This document shows positions 25,876-51,700 of a stretch of DNA of 64,000 nt, in pieces. Source of the stretch: Pseudanabaena sp. PCC 7367. Lineage in GTDB: Bacteria > Cyanobacteriota > Cyanobacteriia > Pseudanabaenales > Pseudanabaenaceae. The stretch is taken from positions 2,862,001 through 2,926,000 of the forward strand of contig NC_019701.1 of the NCBI RefSeq assembly GCF_000317065.1, given 5' to 3'. The notes below the pieces were generated by a model, which was not told where the DNA came from, did not search any database, and saw nothing but the letters and a program-made list of their open reading frames with translations. A program made the position numbers and the translations under genes. How positions within the stretch are numbered: position 1 is the first letter of the stretch; each line of letters starts with the position of its first letter.

Positions 25876-26295
25876 ATGGATATTGCCCTTCCGCCCAGCC
25901 AGATTTTGCTCTATGGCATTGTGGCCGCTGCCGCTTTGATCTATTTACCCGCCTATGCTGTGGTTGCCTATGGTAGATTCCAGGTGGGGATGGACTTCGG
26001 CGCACCACGATCGCTGTTTGAGAAGCTGCCCGACTATGCCAAACGAGCCACCTGGGCACACCAGAACTGCTTTGAATGCTTTGCTTTGTTCGTGGCCGCA
26101 GCCCTGATGGTGTATGTGTCGGGGCATGCTTCGGCCTATACTTCCTGGGCGGTGCTGGTGTTTTTGATGGCCAGGTTTGCCTATAGTGTTTTTTATATTT
26201 TGAATGTGCCAGTGATGCGATCGATGATGTGGGCAATCGGCATGGCCTCGATCGCTGGCTTGATGGCCACTAGCCTTTGGGGCAATCTGCTTTAA
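25876..26295 (+). CDS. MAPEG family membrane protein
   Basis: A 139-aa membrane protein with four hydrophobic helices, of the MAPEG family (membrane-associated proteins in eicosanoid and glutathione metabolism). The defining segment is RATWAHQNCFECFALFVAAAL, where RAxxAHxNxxE matches the family, followed by RFAYSVFYILNVPVMRSM, equivalent to the ARxxYxxxY motif. Bacterial members may act as glutathione transferases or peroxidases; the substrate is unknown here. The ATG start puts the first helix at residue 10. It lies about 120 bases before a small Cys-rich gene. Confidence 0.9.
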   Translation: MDIALPPSQILLYGIVAAAALIYLPAYAVVAYGRFQVGMDFGAPRSLFEKLPDYAKRATWAHQNCFECFALFVAAALMVYVSGHASAYTSWAVLVFLMARFAYSVFYILNVPVMRSMMWAIGMASIAGLMATSLWGNLL

Positions 26296-26416
26296 TTATT
26301 TTTAGATCACAAATTTAACTAACTTTACTAATTTTAGAAACCTTATAATTTATAAATAAAAAAGCTGTAATCTCCAAAATTAAAACAACTATTAATTTAA
26401 GTACCTATAAATACCT

Positions 26417-26641
26417 ATGGACCCGGCCACAATTAATTGCCAAGAAGCCTGCGTAAATGGCTGCGTGTTGGGCGATCGCTGCCCCAATTTGAAGTACCTG
26501 GAAGAAACGCGGAAGTTTTTACAGGAAAAATCGATCGACGAAATGATCAATATCGCCGCAAATCGGTTTGCACCCCCACCAGATATAGAAGCTCAGGATT
26601 CGCAAGAGCCTAACCCTGATCACAATGGCAATTTTATGTAG
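26417..26641 (+). CDS. Small Cys-rich conserved cyanobacterial protein
   Basis: A 74-aa protein with four cysteines in a C-x3-C-x3-C-x5-C arrangement (Cys8, 12, 16, 22), followed by a predicted helix (YLEETRKFLQEKSIDEMINIA) and an acidic, Pro-rich tail. The cysteine spacing could hold zinc or an Fe-S cluster, but this is not shown. I recall similar small proteins in many cyanobacteria without a known function. It is downstream of the MAPEG gene on the same strand. Base composition matches the neighbours, so it reads as a real gene. Confidence 0.7.
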   Translation: MDPATINCQEACVNGCVLGDRCPNLKYLEETRKFLQEKSIDEMINIAANRFAPPPDIEAQDSQEPNPDHNGNFM

Positions 26642-26687
26642 AAGTTGCTACATATAAGTTTTATCAGCCAATCTAAGCGATCTAAAC

Positions 26688-26996
26688 CTAGACCTGGCCA
26701 TATAACCGTTGAAATCGCCTTTGAAACTTGACCAGCGATTTGAAGTAGTTGATGCCATATTGATATTCCAGCCGATCGCCAGCTTCGAGATCGTAGTCGA
26801 GCAGCAAATCCAGCTCATGGAGATTAAACTCGATCTCCTGGTACATTTGCCAGTTCTCGGCCAGGGCAAGTCGCTCTAGCACGTCATAATTCAATTCCGG
26901 CACCCGTTGTGGATATAACTTTAGCGCCATTTCCAGCAGGGCTTTGATCTCCAACAACATCTTTTGCTGGGGTGATTGTTTTAGTTGCGATTGCAT
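26688..26996 (-). CDS. Conserved hypothetical helical protein
   Basis: A 102-aa protein that I do not recognise by name. It is almost entirely helical by composition, with an amphipathic start (MLLEIKALLEMALKLYP) and an acidic middle (FNLHELDLLLDYDLEAG), followed by a basic C-terminus (FQRRFQRLYGQV). No signal peptide or metal motif is seen. It lies 59 bases upstream-to-downstream of the CSP41-like gene on the same strand, with the epimerase gene read first, so they could share a message. Support comes from coding-like composition and a clean ATG. Confidence 0.65.
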   Translation of the reverse strand: MQSQLKQSPQQKMLLEIKALLEMALKLYPQRVPELNYDVLERLALAENWQMYQEIEFNLHELDLLLDYDLEAGDRLEYQYGINYFKSLVKFQRRFQRLYGQV

Positions 26997-27055
26997 TATT
27001 TTTTCGATCGCTCAGTTCTCAATAAGTAAAACCACAATTATATAGATTAAATTGA

Positions 27056-28006
27056 TTATCCGGCGGCAGCAATAATCTGATCATCGATCGCAAAGTCGAT
27101 TTCTTGCTCATGGCGACCGGAGGGCACATAGTCCTGTTTGAAGGAAGTTTCTAGACCTTCGACCAGATCAAATTCTGGCTCCCAATCGAGATCGAGTAGG
27201 GCTTTATCGATCGCGGTGAAGAAATGCTGCAACCGAAACGGGAAGGCTTTTTTCTTGCCAAAGTCAAAGTCCTTGGGGTTGTAGTAAACAAATTGCAGCT
27301 TGTCGGGGTCTTTGCCAATCGCCTGGGCGCAAAGCTTAGCAATCCCGCTGTAGGTAACATAGCGAATGTCGGAGATGTTATAAATTTCGCCGTAGGTTTT
27401 GGGTTGCTTGAGTACCGCTGCCATCGCCGCCGCTAAGTCCTCTACATGGCCTAGTTGGGTAATAAATTGACCATTGCCAGGGATCGGCACGGGGCGATCG
27501 CGCACGATCCGATCGAAGAACCAGGCTTCTACGTCGTTGTAGTTGCCGGGGCCATAGATATAGGTGGGGCGAATTGAGGTGAAGGGGAAGCCTTCGGCGC
27601 TGTAGAGTTTTTTGAGGTAGGCTTCGGTGTGTAGTTTGCCTTTGTGGCGACTTTCGGGGTTGGTGGGGTCTTCTTCAAAATAAGGTAATGTCTCGGATTC
27701 TTGATATACGCCGGCGGAACTCATGTAAATGAAGTGGCGGATGCGATCGCGGAACATGTCAACGATCGGTTTGGTGTCGCTGAGTTCGCGGCCGCTGTTG
27801 TCGAAGATGGCATCGAAGGACTGGCCGCTGAGTTTTTCTTTGAGCTGTTGGATGTCTTTGCGATCGCCCTGGATCATCTTCACGCCTGCGGCTGGGGCGG
27901 GGCGATTGCCGCGATTGAATAGGACTACTTCATGACCAAGCGAGATCAGGTTTTGGGTGAGCGCTACGCCCACGAACCTGGTGCCACCCATTATCAATAT
28001 TCTCAT
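27056..28006 (-). CDS. CSP41-like NAD-dependent epimerase/reductase family protein
   Basis: A 316-aa atypical short-chain dehydrogenase. The dinucleotide loop GGTRFVG sits at residues 7-13, followed by FNRGNRP. In place of the usual active-site YxxxK it has SRHKGKLHTEAYL after the MSSAGVY segment, as in plastid CSP41b and its cyanobacterial relatives, which associate with RNA and ribosomes or polymerase instead of clearly acting as epimerases. The later SIRPTYIYGPGNY is a family motif. The call is a CSP41b homologue; enzyme activity on a sugar nucleotide is not supported. The ATG start lies exactly at the first strand. Confidence 0.85.
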   Translation of the reverse strand: MRILIMGGTRFVGVALTQNLISLGHEVVLFNRGNRPAPAAGVKMIQGDRKDIQQLKEKLSGQSFDAIFDNSGRELSDTKPIVDMFRDRIRHFIYMSSAGVYQESETLPYFEEDPTNPESRHKGKLHTEAYLKKLYSAEGFPFTSIRPTYIYGPGNYNDVEAWFFDRIVRDRPVPIPGNGQFITQLGHVEDLAAAMAAVLKQPKTYGEIYNISDIRYVTYSGIAKLCAQAIGKDPDKLQFVYYNPKDFDFGKKKAFPFRLQHFFTAIDKALLDLDWEPEFDLVEGLETSFKQDYVPSGRHEQEIDFAIDDQIIAAAG

Positions 28007-28082
28007 GGTTGCTCTGTTTTGAGTTTTTCCAACTTTGCCTCAACTTTTAAATATTAAGGTGTTTTGGTTTTTTTGGCTGTTT

Positions 28083-29069
28083 TTATTGTGGGGTGTTTTC
28101 TTCGGGGCGGTCATTATCGTCGTCAGTTGCTTCTGTGCTGTTCTGCTCTTTCCATAGCTCCCAAAATGCATCTGGCACATTTATTGCATCTTCCAAATTC
28201 TTCACACCTTTAAGTACAGTATTGGCTTTGCTGACACGTACATCAGTAAGATCTGCTTCAGAAAGATCGGCATTACTGAGATTAACAAGGGAAAGGTTAA
28301 CGCCCCTTAAATTAGCAGCTACCAGATTTGCATCGCTAAAATTAGCAGCGAGGGCTGCTCCTTCAAGTTGTGTGCATTTTAACGTAGCGCCCATGAAATC
28401 TGCACCGAAAAGAATTGCATTATTTAGTTTTGCATATGTAAGATCTGCCTCGATAAACTTGGCTTCGCAAAGGTGGGCATCAATAAACTCCGCATCAACT
28501 AAGCTAGCAAAGCTAAAGTTCGCGTATTTGCAATAAGAATTATTGAAATTAGCGTACTCTAATTTTGCATCTGTAAAGTTAGCTTCATTAAATTCAGAGT
28601 TAGGGACTTGCAAACAACTAAGTTCAGCGTAAGGTAATTCGATAGCATTAAATGAAATACCATCTGAGTATAGATCCTCAAGAGCTTTGCGACGAGCGTA
28701 GCTTGTTCCAATCCATTTAGCATTATCTATAACTTGCCAAGCCTCATAATGCCTTCTCTTTTTGCGCTCATTTGACTCCAAGATGTAAAGCCAAATACCA
28801 GAAATAAGCGAAAGAGTTCTTAGACTATCTAAATCGATTAAATCTAAGACACTGGTATATTTAGGGTTTGGTTTATTAGTAAATGGTAAAAGCCATTTCT
28901 CAAAATAATAAAAAGCGACAATTGAAATGGCTGCAAATATGATTGAACAGATGATGCGTTGCCATTGAGTCTTAATAACATGCTCTTTAAATTGTTTCTC
29001 GCATTGAGACCACAATTTAGACTGCCAAGATTCCTTTTTTTTATTTTCTGGCTTTTCTGGTTCTGGCAT
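28083..29069 (-). CDS. Membrane-anchored pentapeptide-repeat protein
   Basis: A 328-aa protein with a basic N-terminus, two hydrophobic segments (IICSIIFAAISIVAFYYF, about residues 40-62, and TLSLISGIWLYIL, about 100-113), then about 130 residues of A(N/D)LxxA-type pentapeptide repeats (residues 150-285) forming a quadrilateral beta helix, and an acidic tail. The repeat region should face the cytosol. The role is unknown; pentapeptide proteins can mimic DNA or act as scaffolds. Its ATG overlaps the stop of the upstream protoporphyrinogen oxidase by one base (TAATG), so expression is likely coupled. An A9 run just before that stop could allow slippage. Confidence 0.85.
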   Translation of the reverse strand: MPEPEKPENKKKESWQSKLWSQCEKQFKEHVIKTQWQRIICSIIFAAISIVAFYYFEKWLLPFTNKPNPKYTSVLDLIDLDSLRTLSLISGIWLYILESNERKKRRHYEAWQVIDNAKWIGTSYARRKALEDLYSDGISFNAIELPYAELSCLQVPNSEFNEANFTDAKLEYANFNNSYCKYANFSFASLVDAEFIDAHLCEAKFIEADLTYAKLNNAILFGADFMGATLKCTQLEGAALAANFSDANLVAANLRGVNLSLVNLSNADLSEADLTDVRVSKANTVLKGVKNLEDAINVPDAFWELWKEQNSTEATDDDNDRPEENTPQ

Positions 29070-30577
29070 TATTTTTTTTTAGTAGACAGATTTAAAAACC
29101 CCTTAATTTGTTCAGCCGTACCAAAACTCCTCTTCACACAATCCCCCAGCGCCACGCCACCAATAAAATTAGCACTCACAAACAACCCAGGATGATTAGC
29201 CAGATCCCTTTCAACCCGCGCCAATCGATCGAGGTGACCGACCTCATACTGCGGGATCGCCCGTTGCCACAAATGCACCGCCAACACCTTCGGTTCGATC
29301 GTGGTGTCTGGTTTCAGCAACGTTTGCTTCAGGTCACTATGCACCGCCTGAGCTATTTCAGGTTCAGATAGATCGGCAATGCCAGTATCCAACGACCCAC
29401 CAATAAAATTCAGCAGCAGATGATAGCCAGCCGGAGCGCGATCGCTAAACAAACTCGATCCCCAGATCGTGCCCAACGTACGGATGCCCTGACTACGCGG
29501 GATCAAATTACCAAACCCATTCATATCCCGTTTCATCGCCGCATCCGGATACCCCAACACCACACAGGCCACTGGCGGGTAATAAATCTCACCCAAAGAT
29601 TGAGCTGCATCAGGGGCAATATCTTGCAGCAGCATACTGGAAACATAGGCAGGCGTAGTAAGGAGCAAAGCCCGCGCCGTGATCGTTTCGATCCCGTGGG
29701 GTGTCTCATAGGTGGCGCTATATGTCCCATCAGAGTTGGGCTGGATTTTGTCCAACCGCCATTGCAATCGCACCTCATGACCTTTGTCGATTAAATCTTC
29801 GGCGATCGCCCTGGGCAGAGCCTCAATCCCATTTTTAAATGATCCCAACTGTCCTGGCTTGGTTTTGGGGATCTCCTGGCGATCGTAAATATTTGCTGGC
29901 TGGTTGGTTTGCGCCTTCTCTTGCTTGCGCTTGGCCAACCGCGACAGGATCGCCCCCGCCACCAGACCATTGTAGTTTTTTTCTAACCGGAAAATCTTGC
30001 CAAATGCCGCCGCCGCACTCAGCTTGTCCGTATTGCCTGCATAAACCCCAGAGATGAACGGTACTACCAGCCGATCGACCACCTCTTGCCCCAGATGCCG
30101 CTTAAAAAACTGCGCCACAGTTTCTTCCCCCGCTGCCGCTGGTCGCACAAAGCCGATCGCCCCCAGGAAAGCCCTTAGCTTGCCCTTGATCGTTAATAAA
30201 TTAAATTTGGTTAGCAGCTGCGGTGACATGGGCAGAGCATTTAACTTCCCATTCCAGAACACAAACCTGGGCAACTTGCCATCCGCAAATACTAATTCAT
30301 CCTTTAGCCCCACCGCCGCCGCCAGTTTGAGTAGCTCTGGGGCTGGCTGAAAGCTATTGGGCCCTTCTTCCCATTGAAAACCTACTTCATCCCGCTGCGA
30401 GACGATCGCCCCGCCCACCCGATTTTGTGCCTCGGTGACGATAATCCTGAGCTGGTTTGACCCATTAGCCTCAGCGACAGAATTGCTGGCCAGGTCATGA
30501 GCCACGGTGAGGCCACTGATCCCAGCGCCAACTACCAACAGGTCGATCGGTGAGCCAGCATGATTATGGTTGGACAT
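29069..30577 (-). CDS. hemY: Protoporphyrinogen oxidase, HemY type
   Basis: An FAD-dependent oxidase of 502 aa that converts protoporphyrinogen IX to protoporphyrin IX, the last shared step of heme and chlorophyll synthesis. The FAD loop is LLVVGAGISGLTVAHDLA, followed by VTEAQNRVGGAI. The pair EEGPNSFQP and the C-terminal FVSANFIGGVALGDCV are typical of the oxygen-dependent PPOX/HemY family. Many cyanobacteria use HemJ, so a HemY is less common. The final codons read Thr-Lys-Lys-Lys from an A9 run ahead of the stop, overlapping the next gene. The ATG start (MSNHNHAG) is in good context for the fold. Confidence 0.92.
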   Translation of the reverse strand: MSNHNHAGSPIDLLVVGAGISGLTVAHDLASNSVAEANGSNQLRIIVTEAQNRVGGAIVSQRDEVGFQWEEGPNSFQPAPELLKLAAAVGLKDELVFADGKLPRFVFWNGKLNALPMSPQLLTKFNLLTIKGKLRAFLGAIGFVRPAAAGEETVAQFFKRHLGQEVVDRLVVPFISGVYAGNTDKLSAAAAFGKIFRLEKNYNGLVAGAILSRLAKRKQEKAQTNQPANIYDRQEIPKTKPGQLGSFKNGIEALPRAIAEDLIDKGHEVRLQWRLDKIQPNSDGTYSATYETPHGIETITARALLLTTPAYVSSMLLQDIAPDAAQSLGEIYYPPVACVVLGYPDAAMKRDMNGFGNLIPRSQGIRTLGTIWGSSLFSDRAPAGYHLLLNFIGGSLDTGIADLSEPEIAQAVHSDLKQTLLKPDTTIEPKVLAVHLWQRAIPQYEVGHLDRLARVERDLANHPGLFVSANFIGGVALGDCVKRSFGTAEQIKGFLNLSTKKK

Positions 30578-31694
30578 AGTTAGTTAATTGTTAATCAAGT
30601 TTGTGCATGAATAGGTCGAGGCAGGGGATCGATCGGGCTAGTTTTGTTCCAGCTTTCAGTTAAAAATCTAGCTCACTAGATCTAGCTGTGGCTAGTCAAA
30701 GATCATAGCCAAACTTCGATCGCTATCTGCCAATATTCAAGAATGTTCAAACTTGCTAACTCAAAACTGTTACAAATCAAACAAACCGATCAACTAAATT
30801 TAGCCGCAAGGAGCGATCGCGGCTTTGTAAATTTTCAAGCCTTAAGATCGATTTTCTATTTGGGAATATTTAGAAATATGCTAATGGGTTCAGTTAATAA
30901 CATGATCCCCGATTGGATGGCATAAAAATCAACCTGGGGATCGCCAGGATATTTACCAGCAAAGAGATTTAAGCTAAAAACAAGAGCTTTTGGCGTGTGA
31001 CAAGGTAGCGATCCCGCCAGAGACAAATGAGTAAATATACTCACTCTCGATCGGTGTTTCAACAATATAATTTGATTTTAAAAGAGCAGCTAGCTATCAA
31101 CAGCTAACATCCCAGACCTTCACTTGAAGCGGGTTTCGGCTATTTAGTAAAGCTGAGTGCTCACTTTATGATGGTAAAAAAGGATTAACTATTCTTAAAT
31201 AGTTTCAACTTATAAAGAAAATGTTAAGCGATCCCCGTTTTTTTGTATTGTCAGGCACAATAATGATAGTTCAATCGAGGTCAGCCGATATATAGACCTT
31301 GAATTTAAAAGCTAATTTAATACTCTACTTGATATGTGATGCTTGATCCCCGACAGATTGAGCATCGCTTTTTAGTAACTGTCTCTAACCTACCATATAA
31401 ATACTTAGGTAGATATATTTACTGTTTTTGTTTAGATTGAGTTATATTTCTACACTTAATACTGCGGTAAAACTTAGTAGAGCAAAACATTTCTTAATTA
31501 ATAAATTGCCCCACAAAAAATCAAAAAGCTCTGATTTATATACCATCGATCAGCATATAACGACAGAAGGGGTTGTTATAGTTATATACAGCAATTATGG
31601 TTAAGAGGATTGTCGCAAAACACTGGTTACTGACGATCGCTTTACTTAAGTAAGCTTGAAAGTATAACTATTAGAAGGTTTGTTAGCCAATATC
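30578..31694. other. Long intergenic region upstream of aat
   Basis: About 1.1 kb separate the divergent hemY and aat genes. No convincing ORF is present. It holds a hairpin with a T run at 31338-31371 and a perfect GTA-N8-TAC at 31409-31422, about 270 bases before aat. Together they could flag a small RNA, but the evidence is thin. Confidence 0.5.
31338..31371 (+). terminator. Candidate terminator hairpin without a known upstream gene
   Basis: GATGCT at 31338-31343 can pair with AGCATC at 31361-31366, with a 17-base loop, and is followed by GCTTTTT. No coding gene precedes it on this strand within 1 kb, so it may end an unannotated RNA. The stem is short and the loop long, so this is tentative. 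Confidence 0.4.
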
Positions 31695-32270
31695 ATGTTT
31701 GATGTGCGTAGTGTGATTAACGGCTATGCGCAAGGGCACTTTCTGATGGCGGAAGAAGAAGGTGTTCCCGTTGAATGGTACTACACCAAGAGTAGGACTT
31801 TGATCCCGTTGGACGATCGGTTTCGCTACCCTCGATCGCTGCGACGGGCAATTAACAAAGATCAGTTCCAGGTTAAGATTAATGCGGCCTTTGGGGCGGT
31901 AGTTGATGGTTGTGCCGATCGCCAAACCACCTGGATTTCCGATCAACTCAAGGCTATTTATCATGAGTTAAACCGAGCTGGCTGGGCCTACAGCTTCGAG
32001 ACCTGGTGTGGCGAAGAATTAGCCGGTGGGATTTTGGGGATCTCGATCGGCGGTGCTTTCATTGGTGAATCGATGTTTTTTCGGGTTTCCGATGGATCAA
32101 AGGTGGCGATGGTGAAGTTAGTAGACCATTTACGATCGCGCGGCTTTTTATTATTCGATGCCCAGCTCATGAATCCCCATTTACAGCGGTTTGGTGCCTA
32201 TGAAGTATCTGATTCTGAATATCGCCGTATGCTCGACATTGCCTTACAAATGCCTTGCTCTATGTTGTAA
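31695..32270 (+). CDS. aat: Leucyl/phenylalanyl-tRNA--protein transferase
   Basis: Adds Leu or Phe from tRNA to proteins with N-terminal Arg or Lys, marking them for ClpS/ClpAP-type degradation (N-degron pathway). The 191-aa product carries the cyanobacterial hallmarks GYAQGHFLMAEEEG, LIPLDDRFRYPRSLRR and, later, GGAFIGESMFF and RFGAYEVS. I use the ATG at 31695, whose product aligns with the known short cyanobacterial N-terminus; TTG at 31680 is one base after AGAAGG and too close to it. The sequence is complete with no frameshift. Confidence 0.93.
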   Translation: MFDVRSVINGYAQGHFLMAEEEGVPVEWYYTKSRTLIPLDDRFRYPRSLRRAINKDQFQVKINAAFGAVVDGCADRQTTWISDQLKAIYHELNRAGWAYSFETWCGEELAGGILGISIGGAFIGESMFFRVSDGSKVAMVKLVDHLRSRGFLLFDAQLMNPHLQRFGAYEVSDSEYRRMLDIALQMPCSML

Positions 32271-32346
32271 ATTAGCCAGCTTTAGTTTAGCTCCTGATTA
32301 TGTCACGTCACTACCCGATTTTTCGTACTAACTTTCGTACTAACTA

Positions 32347-32949
32347 ATGAGTGAACCTGTATGGGCTTACGCTACGCCTGGAATTCCCGATCGGCTGTTT
32401 GAACGCTTGCCGGGCATCCCCTTGAGTAAATGTGAAGCCAGACTATTGCTAATTGGCAATCTGCGCTTATATCCCCAATCAATCCTGTGGGATATTGGCG
32501 CTGGCACTGGCACGATCCCCGTAGAAGTGGGGCTGCTGTGCCCCCAAAGCCAGGTCTTTGCGATCGAGCGCGATGAAGATGTCGCTAAGTTGATTGAGCG
32601 CAATTGTCAGAAGTTTGCGGTGGGCAATGTGGAAGTAATTGTTGGCAGTGCGCCAGAATGTTTAGAGCAGCTCCAGGCCACTCCCGATCGTATTTGCATT
32701 GAAGGCGGACGATCGCTCGGTGAAATTCTGGACTATTGTTGGCAACGGTTAGCAATTCCGGGTCGAGTTACCGCCACCACATCCAGCCTGGAAGGGCTCT
32801 ATGCCATTTCCGAAAGTTTTGCTAAATTACAAGCACGTAATGTTGAGGTGGTGCAATCGGCTGTAAATCGCCTGGAAACCAGGGGCAATCGGCAATCATT
32901 TGCAGCGATCAATCCGATGTTTATTATTAGTGGCGAAAAGTTGGGTTAG
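32347..32949 (+). CDS. cbiT: Precorrin-6Y/8 methyltransferase-type protein CbiT
   Basis: A 200-aa SAM-dependent methyltransferase of the CbiT family, which methylates C15 of the corrin ring and decarboxylates the acetate side chain in cobalamin synthesis. The start region GIPDRLFERLPGIPLSKCEAR is family-typical, followed by the SAM loop WDIGAGTGTIPVEVG, then AIERDEDVAKLIERN. In many bacteria this domain is fused to CbiE as CobL; here it is a separate protein, as in some cyanobacteria. It lies 23 bases before a DUF2993 gene on the same strand. Confidence 0.9.
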   Translation: MSEPVWAYATPGIPDRLFERLPGIPLSKCEARLLLIGNLRLYPQSILWDIGAGTGTIPVEVGLLCPQSQVFAIERDEDVAKLIERNCQKFAVGNVEVIVGSAPECLEQLQATPDRICIEGGRSLGEILDYCWQRLAIPGRVTATTSSLEGLYAISESFAKLQARNVEVVQSAVNRLETRGNRQSFAAINPMFIISGEKLG

Positions 32950-32972
32950 CAGATCAGCGAGGTTAATTAATA

Positions 32973-33962
32973 ATGGATTGGGCAGTTGGCATTTTATCTA
33001 CCCTATTTGGCTTGGCAGGTACACCGGGCATTGTGATCGATCGGGTGGCCACTAATTTTGTGCGCAGTCAGGTTCATAGCGCCGATGTCTTAGAAGTCAG
33101 GATTGAAAATACGCCTAATTATCAAGTTTTGCAGGGGGATGTCGATCGGCTCCTGGTAGCAGGGCGCGGTGTATATATTCAGCCATTTTTACGGGTGGAT
33201 ACGATCGACCTGGAAACCGATCCGATTAGCGTTAATGCTGGGTTGGGTGAGCAGGATTTTGCGCTCAGAAAACCATTGCAAGCGGCGGTGCGGGTAATCA
33301 TTACCTCTGCTGATGTCAATCTGGCGTTGCGATCGCCGGAAATTAGCGACTCATTTCAGGGCGTGGAGGTGAATTTTTCTGCCGATCCCAGCCAGGCCGA
33401 AATATTTGACCTGAATGATCCCAGGGTGGAATTTCTCGATGGCGATCGGATTCGCCTCACTGCGGTACTAGAGCCCAGCAAGGCAATTAAGCAATCAGCC
33501 GATCTTGCCGATCTTGCCGATCAAAAGAAAAATAACTCAGCCCAGGATCGACAAGCCCCCCTATTAGCGACACCATCAGAAGATGCATTTGATTCTACTG
33601 GTGATCCAGATTTAGGCATCGATAAGGTGACGGATGCCAGCAGCGATCGCGCCTTAGAGTCCCAAGCCCAAGATGCGATTAATCCAGCAGAAAATGAAGA
33701 TCGGCTCGAAGTTTTAATCGAAGCCTCATTGCGAGTGGAAAACGGGGTTCGGCTGCAAATTAGCGATCCGATTGTTAACTTGCAAGGCGTAGCCGTTCCC
33801 AAAGATATTATTGATGCGTTTGTGGATGGTTTGAACAAAGTGCTGGATCTACGTCAGCTCGAAGAAACAGGCATCATCGCCAGAGTGCTGCAATTTAAAG
33901 TCACCGATGGTCAAATGCAGGTGGTGGGTTTTGCCCAACTTCAGCCAGAAGCCTTCGAGTAA
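32973..33962 (+). CDS. DUF2993 (LmeA family) lipid-binding-like protein
   Basis: A 329-aa protein of the DUF2993/LmeA family. The N-terminus (GTPGIVIDRVATNFVRSQVHSADVLEVRIENTPN is split around residues 15-48) and the repeated beta strands fit the family, whose members resemble tubular lipid-binding or phospholipid-binding folds. About 70 residues rich in Asp, Ala, Ser and Gln (about 170-240), including a short ADLADLAD repeat made by a 9-base duplication, interrupt the domain. The function is unknown; envelope lipid handling is a reasonable guess. It follows cbiT by 23 bases and may share its message. Confidence 0.82.
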   Translation: MDWAVGILSTLFGLAGTPGIVIDRVATNFVRSQVHSADVLEVRIENTPNYQVLQGDVDRLLVAGRGVYIQPFLRVDTIDLETDPISVNAGLGEQDFALRKPLQAAVRVIITSADVNLALRSPEISDSFQGVEVNFSADPSQAEIFDLNDPRVEFLDGDRIRLTAVLEPSKAIKQSADLADLADQKKNNSAQDRQAPLLATPSEDAFDSTGDPDLGIDKVTDASSDRALESQAQDAINPAENEDRLEVLIEASLRVENGVRLQISDPIVNLQGVAVPKDIIDAFVDGLNKVLDLRQLEETGIIARVLQFKVTDGQMQVVGFAQLQPEAFE

Positions 33963-49434: not shown

Positions 49435-50481
49435 CTAGTCATGAATGCTGCCATTGGGCATGGTGGCTTCATGCAGATTTACGCCTAATAACTTAGCGCC
49501 ACTGACATCAGCCCCAAATAAATTAGCACCGCCCAAGTGAGCCCCACTTAGATCAGCGTCGGCTAAATTAGTCCACTTCAGGATTGCACCAAACAAGAAG
49601 GCCTCATTTAAATAGGCGGCGTTAAGATTGGCTTGGCTCAAATCAGCGCTGTAGAGGCTGGCTCCATACAAGTTAGCGGCTTCCAGGTGCGACAGCCGCA
49701 GATCGGCATGTTTGAGGTTGGCTTGGCTCAAATTAGCACCATGTAATTCCGTACCAATTAAATGAGCATCACTGAGATCAGCACAAATCAAACTGACTTT
49801 GGTTAAGTCGGCGCGGCTGAGATCGGTTTCGATCAAACTTGCACCACGAATATCCGCAGCATAGAGATAGGACATGCTTAAGTTGGCGCGATCGAGAATT
49901 GCGCTACCAAATTTCGACTTGGCACAATTAGCTTTGCTCATATTGGCATTACTCAAGTTGGCTCGCTCAAAATTAGTGGCGATCGCATAAACGCTGCTCA
50001 GGTTTGCACCATGTAAATTTGCACCACCCAAATCAGCCACACTCAAATAAGCTTCACTTAAATTCGCACCACTAAAATTACTACCATAGGCATCGGTGCC
50101 ACTCAACACCGCACCACTCAGATTTGCTTCACTGGCATCGGTATCAATCAAGCAAGATTGACTTAGATTAGCCCAGGTCAAGTTTGCCCCATGTAAATAG
50201 GCCTTATTAAGATAAGCACAGTTTAAATACGCCATGCTTAAGTTAGCTTCATCGAAATTGGCTTCAATTAAATTCGCCCCGCTCAAATTCGCCCGGATCA
50301 GATTAGCCATACTTAAGTTGGCTCCCCTGAGATTAACTGCACTCAGATCGGCATCTAATAAATCAACGCTAGTTAAATCGGCACCAGTTAGATCAACTTG
50401 AATTCGGCTATTTGCCGATCGCCACTGATTCCAAGTAGATACACCCTGTTGCAGTAATTCTAAATGCTCACTGTTTGGCAT
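49435..50481 (-). CDS. Pentapeptide-repeat protein
   Basis: A 348-aa protein made almost wholly of A(D/N)LxxA-type pentapeptides from about residue 25 to the end, in roughly 60 consecutive units (for example LRGANLSMANLIRANLSGAN). It should form a long right-handed quadrilateral beta helix. The first 25 residues resemble the usual cap (HLELLQQGVSTWNQWR). There is no signal peptide or membrane helix. The function is unknown. It lies between the IS21 and IS630 elements but is not part of either. The repeats of the other pentapeptide gene near 28 kb are not unusually similar. Confidence 0.88.
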   Translation of the reverse strand: MPNSEHLELLQQGVSTWNQWRSANSRIQVDLTGADLTSVDLLDADLSAVNLRGANLSMANLIRANLSGANLIEANFDEANLSMAYLNCAYLNKAYLHGANLTWANLSQSCLIDTDASEANLSGAVLSGTDAYGSNFSGANLSEAYLSVADLGGANLHGANLSSVYAIATNFERANLSNANMSKANCAKSKFGSAILDRANLSMSYLYAADIRGASLIETDLSRADLTKVSLICADLSDAHLIGTELHGANLSQANLKHADLRLSHLEAANLYGASLYSADLSQANLNAAYLNEAFLFGAILKWTNLADADLSGAHLGGANLFGADVSGAKLLGVNLHEATMPNGSIHD

Positions 50482-50745: not shown

Positions 50746-51318
50746 TCAGATTAGAGACGCACAGAGATCGGCCTCAAGGAACCAGCCCATAATATCGTCT
50801 AGAGAAACCTTGGCAAGAGCGTTAGAAATAGCTTTATGCAAGTCATCATAGTCCCTGGCCGCCCAAGAGCGTAGAAACTGTTTCACCTTTGACCACAGCA
50901 TCTCAATCGGATTTAGCTCTGGTGAATAAGGCGGTAAGTAAACCAAGTGAGCACCGACGGACTCAATTAACTCTCGCACAGGATCAACCTTATGTACACT
51001 GAGGTTATCCATAATCACAATTGCACCAGACCATAGGTTAGGCAGCAATTTATCTTTGAGATAGGACACGAAAGTATCAGTATTATTGCTACCAGTAAAA
51101 GTAAAATTAGTCAGCACACCGCGTAATGCCATAGCCCCAATTATAGTAACGTTTTTGCCTCGAGCAAGTGGTTTACTAGCATAGGCTCTCTCACCTAGAG
51201 TAGCCCTTGCATACAACCTGGTCATTGCCAGGTTAACGCCTGTCTCATCAATGAATACCAGGTTTTCCATTGCCTGTGGCCAAAGCCAGCGTTGATAATC
51301 TGCTCTCAGCTGTTGCAC
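50746..51318 (-). pseudogene. IS630 transposase, catalytic part in the shifted frame
   Basis: The DDE catalytic domain of an IS630-family transposase, with Asp in FIDETGV, Asp in IVIMDNLSVHK and Glu in SPELNPIEMLWSK. It follows the HTH half in the +1 frame. Joined at the A9 run, the protein would read RKKTFHADERDTERVQQLRAD, a smooth IS630 sequence. The listed start (GTG at 51318) is not a natural start; the real one is in the upstream half. It may be expressed by frameshifting or slippage, so calling it broken is provisional. Confidence 0.75.
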
Positions 51319-51334
51319 TCGTTCTGTATCCCTT

Positions 51335-51700
51335 TCATCGGCGTGAAAAGTTTTTTTTTCGAGTTAACTCCTGCCTTTGCAACGTACGGCACATGGTTGG
51401 TTCTGATACCCTGATGCCAGTACGTTCATACATTTGCTCACATAACTCCGACAGTGTGGCATCATTTTTAGCGGCTACTAACTTTGCTAACTCAGCCAGA
51501 GCAGCTTCATTAAACTTGGCTTTTGCTCCTGCCTTGTATGGAATTGGCTCAACTGAACCAGTAGTGCGATAAAGTTGGAGCAGCTGATGGACACTGTCTT
51601 TACTAACGCTGAATCGGGTTGCCAACTCACGGATTGAACCTTCTTTATTTTCGTACGCTGTGACTATGCGCTGACGCAAATCTAGAGAATGGGCTCTCAT
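51335..51700 (-). CDS. IS630 transposase, N-terminal DNA-binding part
   Basis: A 121-aa frame with the helix-turn-helix region of IS630 transposases: MRAHSLDLRQRIVTAYE, then GSIRELATRFSVSKDSVHQLL, and a second HTH-like segment TLSELCEQMYERTGIRVS. It ends soon after the A9 run at 51351-51359 (reading Lys-Lys-Asn-Phe-Ser-Arg-Arg-stop). One A fewer in the message would fuse it to the catalytic half. The ATG start at 51700 has the family-typical N-terminus. Confidence 0.78.
   Translation of the reverse strand: MRAHSLDLRQRIVTAYENKEGSIRELATRFSVSKDSVHQLLQLYRTTGSVEPIPYKAGAKAKFNEAALAELAKLVAAKNDATLSELCEQMYERTGIRVSEPTMCRTLQRQELTRKKNFSRR

Follow-up and report, generated by a model that had tools for sequence, protein, structure and literature searches.

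A nine-adenine run at the stop/start overlap of hemY and a pentapeptide-repeat gene in Pseudanabaena sp. PCC 7367: probably two coupled genes and a slip site

In Pseudanabaena sp. PCC 7367, the gene for protoporphyrinogen oxidase, hemY, ends with nine consecutive A's directly followed by its stop codon, and that stop shares a base with the start codon of a gene for a pentapeptide-repeat protein. Does this junction simply couple two neighbouring genes, or does slippage on the A's also join HemY to the pentapeptide protein, as the original prediction proposed? We examined the junction within a window of 64,000 nucleotides (the whole stretch of DNA that was analysed), taken from a genome whose two contigs total 4,885,680 bases. 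HemY scores 375.9 bits against the NCBIfam profile TIGR00562, for a cutoff of 97.85. On the minus strand, the 3' end of its gene reads TCT ACT AAA AAA AAA TAA, and the next ATG begins with the final A of this stop codon; the arrangement first proposed, A9 then TAATG with one shared base, was thus confirmed by both the sequence and the open reading frames (Table 1).

Table 1. Features of the hemY junction and of the comparison site in the window (positions of the window).
Feature	Position	Strand	Basis or remark
hemY (protoporphyrinogen oxidase), 502 aa	29069..30577	-	ORF; TIGR00562, PF01593
hemY stop TAA	29071-29069	-	sequence
A9 run, zero-frame codons AAA AAA AAA	29072..29080	-	sequence, codon reading
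Putative slippery heptamer A_AAA_AAA, in phase, zero-frame stop directly after	29072..29078	-	codon reading
TAA of the -1 frame, closing that frame 5' of the A run	29079..29081	-	sequence
TAATG, next start and hemY stop sharing one base	29067..29071	-	sequence, ORFs
ATG of the pentapeptide gene	29069-29067	-	opens the 328-aa ORF
Pentapeptide-repeat protein, 328 aa, hydrophobic N-terminal stretches (by eye) then repeats	28083..29069	-	ORF; PF00805 E 3.9e-25; self-starting homologues
A9 at the orfA/orfB junction of an IS630-like insertion sequence	51351..51359	-	needs +1; comparison site
Transposase ORFs of the IS630-like element	50746..51700	-	orfA and orfB
orfA of the IS630-like element	51335-51700	-	helix-turn-helix; HTH_Tnp_IS630 below its cutoff only
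orfB of the IS630-like element	50746-51318	-	DDE_3

We read the run in silico with different numbers of A's. Nine A's yield HemY alone (502 residues); ten A's, which are equal to a -1 shift, yield an 831-residue predicted HemY-pentapeptide fusion (...STKKKI-MPEPEK...); eight or eleven A's yield short tails that end NNARTRKARK. The junction peptide of the predicted fusion would be ...STKKKIMPEPEK..., within which trypsin cleaves. Past the A run, the -1 frame remains open through the downstream ORF, and the heptamer lies in phase and inside the overlap, as is typical of a recoding site; at nine A's, the run also has about the length associated with transcriptional slippage. Because a TAA of the -1 frame stands directly before the run, the change of frame must occur on the A's themselves.

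A -1 shift therefore does lead in frame into the next gene, at least in silico. That it should enter exactly at the ATG, as the original prediction pointed out, does not hold as an extra point: with any one-nucleotide (TAATG) or four-nucleotide (ATGA) overlap, the -1 frame is automatically that of the downstream gene, and the register of the ATG adds nothing beyond the overlap. Overlaps of this sort are present elsewhere in the genome. A 464-kb sample, composed of the window and 20 stretches of 20 kb from the same genome, contains 358 ORFs of at least 150 aa and eight stop/start overlaps with a downstream ORF of that size, four of one nucleotide (the hemY pair included) and four of four nucleotides. 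What is unusual at the hemY junction is the A9, rather than the register.

How often would such a run be met? The genome contains 36 distinct A runs of at least nine (38 overlapping hits), and long A runs look depleted genome-wide, as about 230 hits would be expected by our own scaling of the window shuffles. The window itself is ordinary in A-run content, since its two runs compare with a mean of 3.05 in shuffled windows, 71 of 100 of which contained at least two. The string A9TAATG occurs once in the genome. Among the genomes of its family, which we take to be the Pseudanabaena family (n = 38), it was found in two others, once each and neither time between two genes, and we thus rejected it as a recurring device of the family. 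As a rough estimate, made post hoc from about one gene-end A9 expected and about 2% of genes with such an overlap, the combination of A9 and overlap would have a chance of a few per cent.

The overlap alone has a simple consequence for translation. Coupled gene pairs have a stop and a start that overlap or lie at most about 10 nt apart, and here the two overlap by 1 nt. By eye, no Shine-Dalgarno-like stretch was found within about 20 bases of the pentapeptide ATG. Because the pair combines a one-base overlap with a start that has no obvious Shine-Dalgarno site next to it, we infer that ribosomes ending hemY would restart on the pentapeptide gene, that is, that the two genes are translationally coupled. 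In both respects the pair resembles the coupled pairs with co-located stop and start treated by Antonov et al. 2013 (PMC3711429); it differs from that class by its additional A9 run and by the lack of conservation of the pair in relatives. An own promoter for the pentapeptide gene was considered and rejected: the region has two promoter-like sites, versus 3.9 expected from shuffles, and one of these straddles the junction and reaches into the ATG, which means that it would not provide an upstream promoter. No tRNA genes were found near the junction (26000-33000). The RNA 3' of the A9 did not fold better than its shuffles (z -1.36, 23 of 200 shuffles as good). At some -1 recoding sites, stimulatory RNA structure is not needed.

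Published work gives a mixed picture of slippage on runs of this length. In the reporter constructs of Antonov et al. 2013 (PMC3711429), a magnesium-chelatase cassette with nine A's gave 40% frameshifting and a DUF111 cluster up to 39%. In Thermus thermophilus dnaX, slippage on an A9 makes 50% of the product shorter, and the same account places the slippage-prone homopolymer length at about nine in many genomes (PMC1088944). The dnaX run is like that of hemY in that nine sense-strand A's lie in the 3' part of the gene; dnaX slippage, however, is established and shortens the product, whereas slippage at hemY is predicted and would join two genes (PMC1088944). At A/T runs of E. coli and Buchnera, insertions are reported to prevail (PMC5574713). 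In a cell-free test, little sliding was reported on A9 or A10 and it was robust only at A11 (PMC4363877); this result, together with the lack of significant RNA structure downstream, counts against a high level of slippage at hemY.

We then classified the 36 long A runs of the genome on the A-carrying strand: 10 lie at ORF-to-ORF frame changes, 3 are interior to an ORF, and 23 fit no class of the rule. Among the 10 bridging runs, 6 are copies of one IS630-like element (+1) and 4 need a -1 change, namely those at hemY, larC, folB-rnhA and a glycosyltransferase/TPR pair (A10). At shorter runs of the 464-kb sample, -1 bridging was seen at 0/1102 A5, 1/364 A6, 0/82 A7 and 0/13 A8. With hemY and the insertion sequence copies left out, -1 bridging concerned 3 of 29 long runs versus 1 of 1561 short ones (Fisher p 2e-5), in a comparison that was planned only once the sites had been seen. 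In this genome, runs of at least nine A's thus show a strong association with changes of frame. The IS630-like element is present in six complete genomic copies of 100% identity, with A9 in every copy. It is akin to the insertion sequences with A9 between their transposase ORFs mentioned in PMC1088944, and one such element lies in the window; like hemY, it has its A9 between ORFs, but it needs a +1 (or -2) change and hemY a -1 change.

Among the -1 bridges, larC lies outside the window (contig C2 4474746-4475621, minus strand). Its two ORFs match adjoining parts of PF01969 (positions 1-238 and 237-374 of the 375 of the profile), a family for which we take DUF111 to be the old name. In the family to which the window belongs, larC was extracted from 30 of the 37 genomes with a match (our own locus and 29 others), and it proved to be split in the -1 frame at 28 loci and in one frame at 2. 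The split junctions comprise 22 A9 and 4 A10, each with A_AAA_AAA in the zero-frame phase, and 2 A_AAA_AAG with the stop immediately after. A wider search matched 281 of 291 genomes; from the matches listed, 19 loci outside the family were extracted, of which 18 keep larC in a single frame and the last has a split with no A run. The larC A9/A10 junction is thus a well-conserved recoding site of an already known kind: like the DUF111 frameshift genes of PMC3711429, it has an A run at the junction and a frame transition between the two halves, and larC of this family has A9. As the two A_AAA_AAG sites are short for transcriptional slippage, they suggest that the ribosome may be the common slipping agent at the larC sites.

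The larC comparison bears directly on hemY. Several larC junctions read GAT AAA AAA AAA, in a phase equal to that of ACT AAA AAA AAA at hemY. Since the A's of hemY, ACT AAA AAA AAA TAA, are in the same phase as those of the larC junctions, some -1 product is likely to be made at hemY. The analogy has its limits, because the halves of larC form one enzyme with a conserved split, whereas HemY and the pentapeptide protein are unrelated and their junction with A9 was seen in one genome.

The two other -1 bridges are less easily interpreted. Of the 29 relatives whose locus was extracted, 28 encode FolB-RNase H in a single open frame; in the genome of the window (contig C2, about 1942589), an A9 separates the two parts by -1, and the first ATG, GTG or TTG 3' of this A9 lies inside the RNase H domain. 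Short RNase H frames (146-167 aa) were found in 7 of 37 family relatives, which shows that RNase H alone occurs, in several genera. These seven are one extracted locus (L166), in which a stop stands between FolB and RNase H, and six from loci that were not extracted: among the eight family genomes whose FolB-RNase H locus was of the latter sort, six have an RNase H frame of 146-166 aa. The folB-rnhA split is either a slippage-rescued gene, or a recent mutation or an assembly error. At the fourth site (contig C2, about 3804820), a glycosyltransferase ORF of 1641 residues terminates at an A10; the -1 frame then continues as a TPR ORF of 689 residues from stop to stop, without ATG, GTG or TTG in the first 168. 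Two relatives of this pair (L243 and L244) gave matches to the first ORF only; a further search on the pair used the tail of that ORF only. Both the glycosyltransferase split and that of folB-rnhA were seen in no other genome, and each might reflect a recent mutation or a fault in the assembly. All together, the -1 junction of larC at A9/A10 in the family, the A9 split of folB-rnhA and the published nine-A cassette (PMC3711429, in its reporter data) support the claim that a run of nine A's is capable of slipping.

Is the hemY run itself conserved? We compared 57 hemY loci, 35 from whole-genome searches and 22 from contig searches, the latter including distant non-cyanobacterial sequences; in the genomes searched, the genus of the window is represented by one species. 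None of the 57 relatives has an A9 at the end of hemY, the longest A run in the last 39 bases being 6, and none has a pentapeptide gene adjoining hemY. At one locus (L040), a pentapeptide ORF lies about 1.9 kb downstream of hemY. The stop/start overlap of the pair was seen in no relative examined, so that the refuting case named by the original prediction, an overlap of this kind lacking the A run, did not arise. One of the 57 loci (L038) has a match that reaches residue 471 only, and its stop was read in a doubtful frame. In the best-sampled genus of the family (g4), 24 of 25 loci have their stop at the equivalents of HemY residues 496-501, and the other (L115) has it at 514, compared with 502 here; the run's three lysine codons thus lie past most of the g4 ends. 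Among the other 32 loci, 15 extend to residue 500 or further.

A search for a fused orthologue across the class (388 genomes, 84 with a match) revealed none: the largest matching open frame was 528 aa, versus 831 for the predicted fusion. A conserved hemY-pentapeptide pair was also rejected, since the pair was found in one genome only among those examined. The original prediction had named conservation of the run and of the overlap, and a fused orthologue, as its checks; neither was borne out in the relatives examined, and with A9 in none of 57 relatives, no adjoining pentapeptide gene and no frame above 528 aa, the idea of a purposeful fusion found no support.

The pentapeptide protein has its own history. 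Its N-terminal 147 residues have matches in 17 of 145 genomes, own included. At the 17 loci of relatives in other genomes, the genes have their own start codons inside open frames, and hemY was found at none of them within flanks of roughly 1.5 kb. When 10 of these 17 relatives were scanned with Pfam, 9 showed pentapeptide-type repeats and no other domain at the cutoff. The tenth (L067; 1084-2967, minus strand) has two globin-domain matches followed by the pentapeptide part, in one open frame of 628 residues. Judged from these domain predictions, the family is usually free-standing, yet one member is fused at its N-terminal side to domains of a haem-binding type. This globin fusion speaks slightly for the fusion idea at hemY.

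We consider it probable that the locus consists of two ordinary genes coupled by their stop/start overlap, and that a competent slip site at their junction likely gives some fusion without having been selected for it. Standing immediately before the stop, the A9 would act as a -1 slip site in Pseudanabaena sp. PCC 7367, and two routes would lead to the same minor HemY-pentapeptide fusion: the ribosome may slip back by a single base on A_AAA_AAA, or an additional A may be inserted by RNA polymerase. Since the hemY A9 is common to none of the relatives examined, the fusion would most likely be an unselected by-product. The sequence, the geometry, the absence of the site from the relatives examined and the conservation of such a site in larC are shown directly; that the hemY copy slips, to what level, and that the product has no function are what we infer from them. 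In our judgement, the probability that the fusion exceeds 1% of HemY is about one half, and that of a selected function for it under one tenth.

It is possible, though distinctly less likely, that only the overlap matters and that the A9 is a tolerated A-rich gene end with negligible slippage. Indeed, A runs do occur near stops: in the 464-kb sample, 14 of 364 A6 and 4 of 82 A7 lie at gene ends (4% of A6-A7). The absence of A9 from the hemY relatives and the lack of a supporting RNA structure also fit negligible slippage. Against it stand the A9 in the same phase at the conserved larC junction of the family, and the strong link between runs of at least nine A's and frame changes in this genome.

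A programmed, species-specific fusion appears improbable. A fixed share of HemY would then carry the pentapeptide domain as a membrane anchor, and the oxidase would in this way be tethered to a membrane. The slip site is competent and in exact register, the hydrophobic N-terminal stretches of the neighbour (seen by eye) would be expected to anchor it in the membrane, and the globin protein (L067) shows that the pentapeptide module can stand behind other domains. However, the A9 is shared by none of the 57 hemY relatives, the class search revealed no fused frame, and hemY is absent from the flanks of roughly 1.5 kb at all 17 loci of pentapeptide relatives. An evolutionary version of this reading, which we also hold to be rather unlikely, is that the hemY A9 was captured as a recoding site in a single lineage, so that a fixed share of the oxidase carries a membrane-anchored tail and fusion by slippage precedes fusion in the DNA. 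It would be set in a lineage whose larC has the same kind of A9, and the module is fused to globins in another cyanobacterium.

Finally, it is very improbable that the nine A's are an assembly error or a polymorphic state of one fused gene with ten A's: homopolymers are prone to error and mutation, and FolB-RNase H, A9-split here, is in one frame in nearly all extracted relatives, but the ATG of the neighbour stands exactly at the overlap, its homologues start independently, and most HemY relatives stop near or before the run.

If, as we favour, the hemY site of the coupled pair does slip, an enzyme of the haem/chlorophyll pathway would be partly chimeric with its neighbour, a possible step towards gene fusion. 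On its own, the hemY finding is modest, and the wider A-run pattern is both more interesting and better founded: in this genome, long A runs cluster where one ORF gives way to another in a different frame, and the A9/A10 junction of larC is conserved in the family. Genes that seem broken at an A9 in these genomes should be tested before they are called dead, and this family lends itself to asking whether the ribosome or the polymerase is the slipping agent.

Some further observations concern the pentapeptide protein. A plasmid search with this protein, for a mobile origin, gave distant proteins only (190 records, all below 60% identity and none covering 80% of the query). Proteins that combine an HYEAWQ-I--A region with hydrophobic N-terminal stretches and pentapeptide repeats are scattered across cyanobacteria (the window protein; L062-L081). 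The genome is rich in pentapeptide repeat regions, with 91 matches to the window protein, and a further pentapeptide-repeat ORF is present in the window at 49435-50481.
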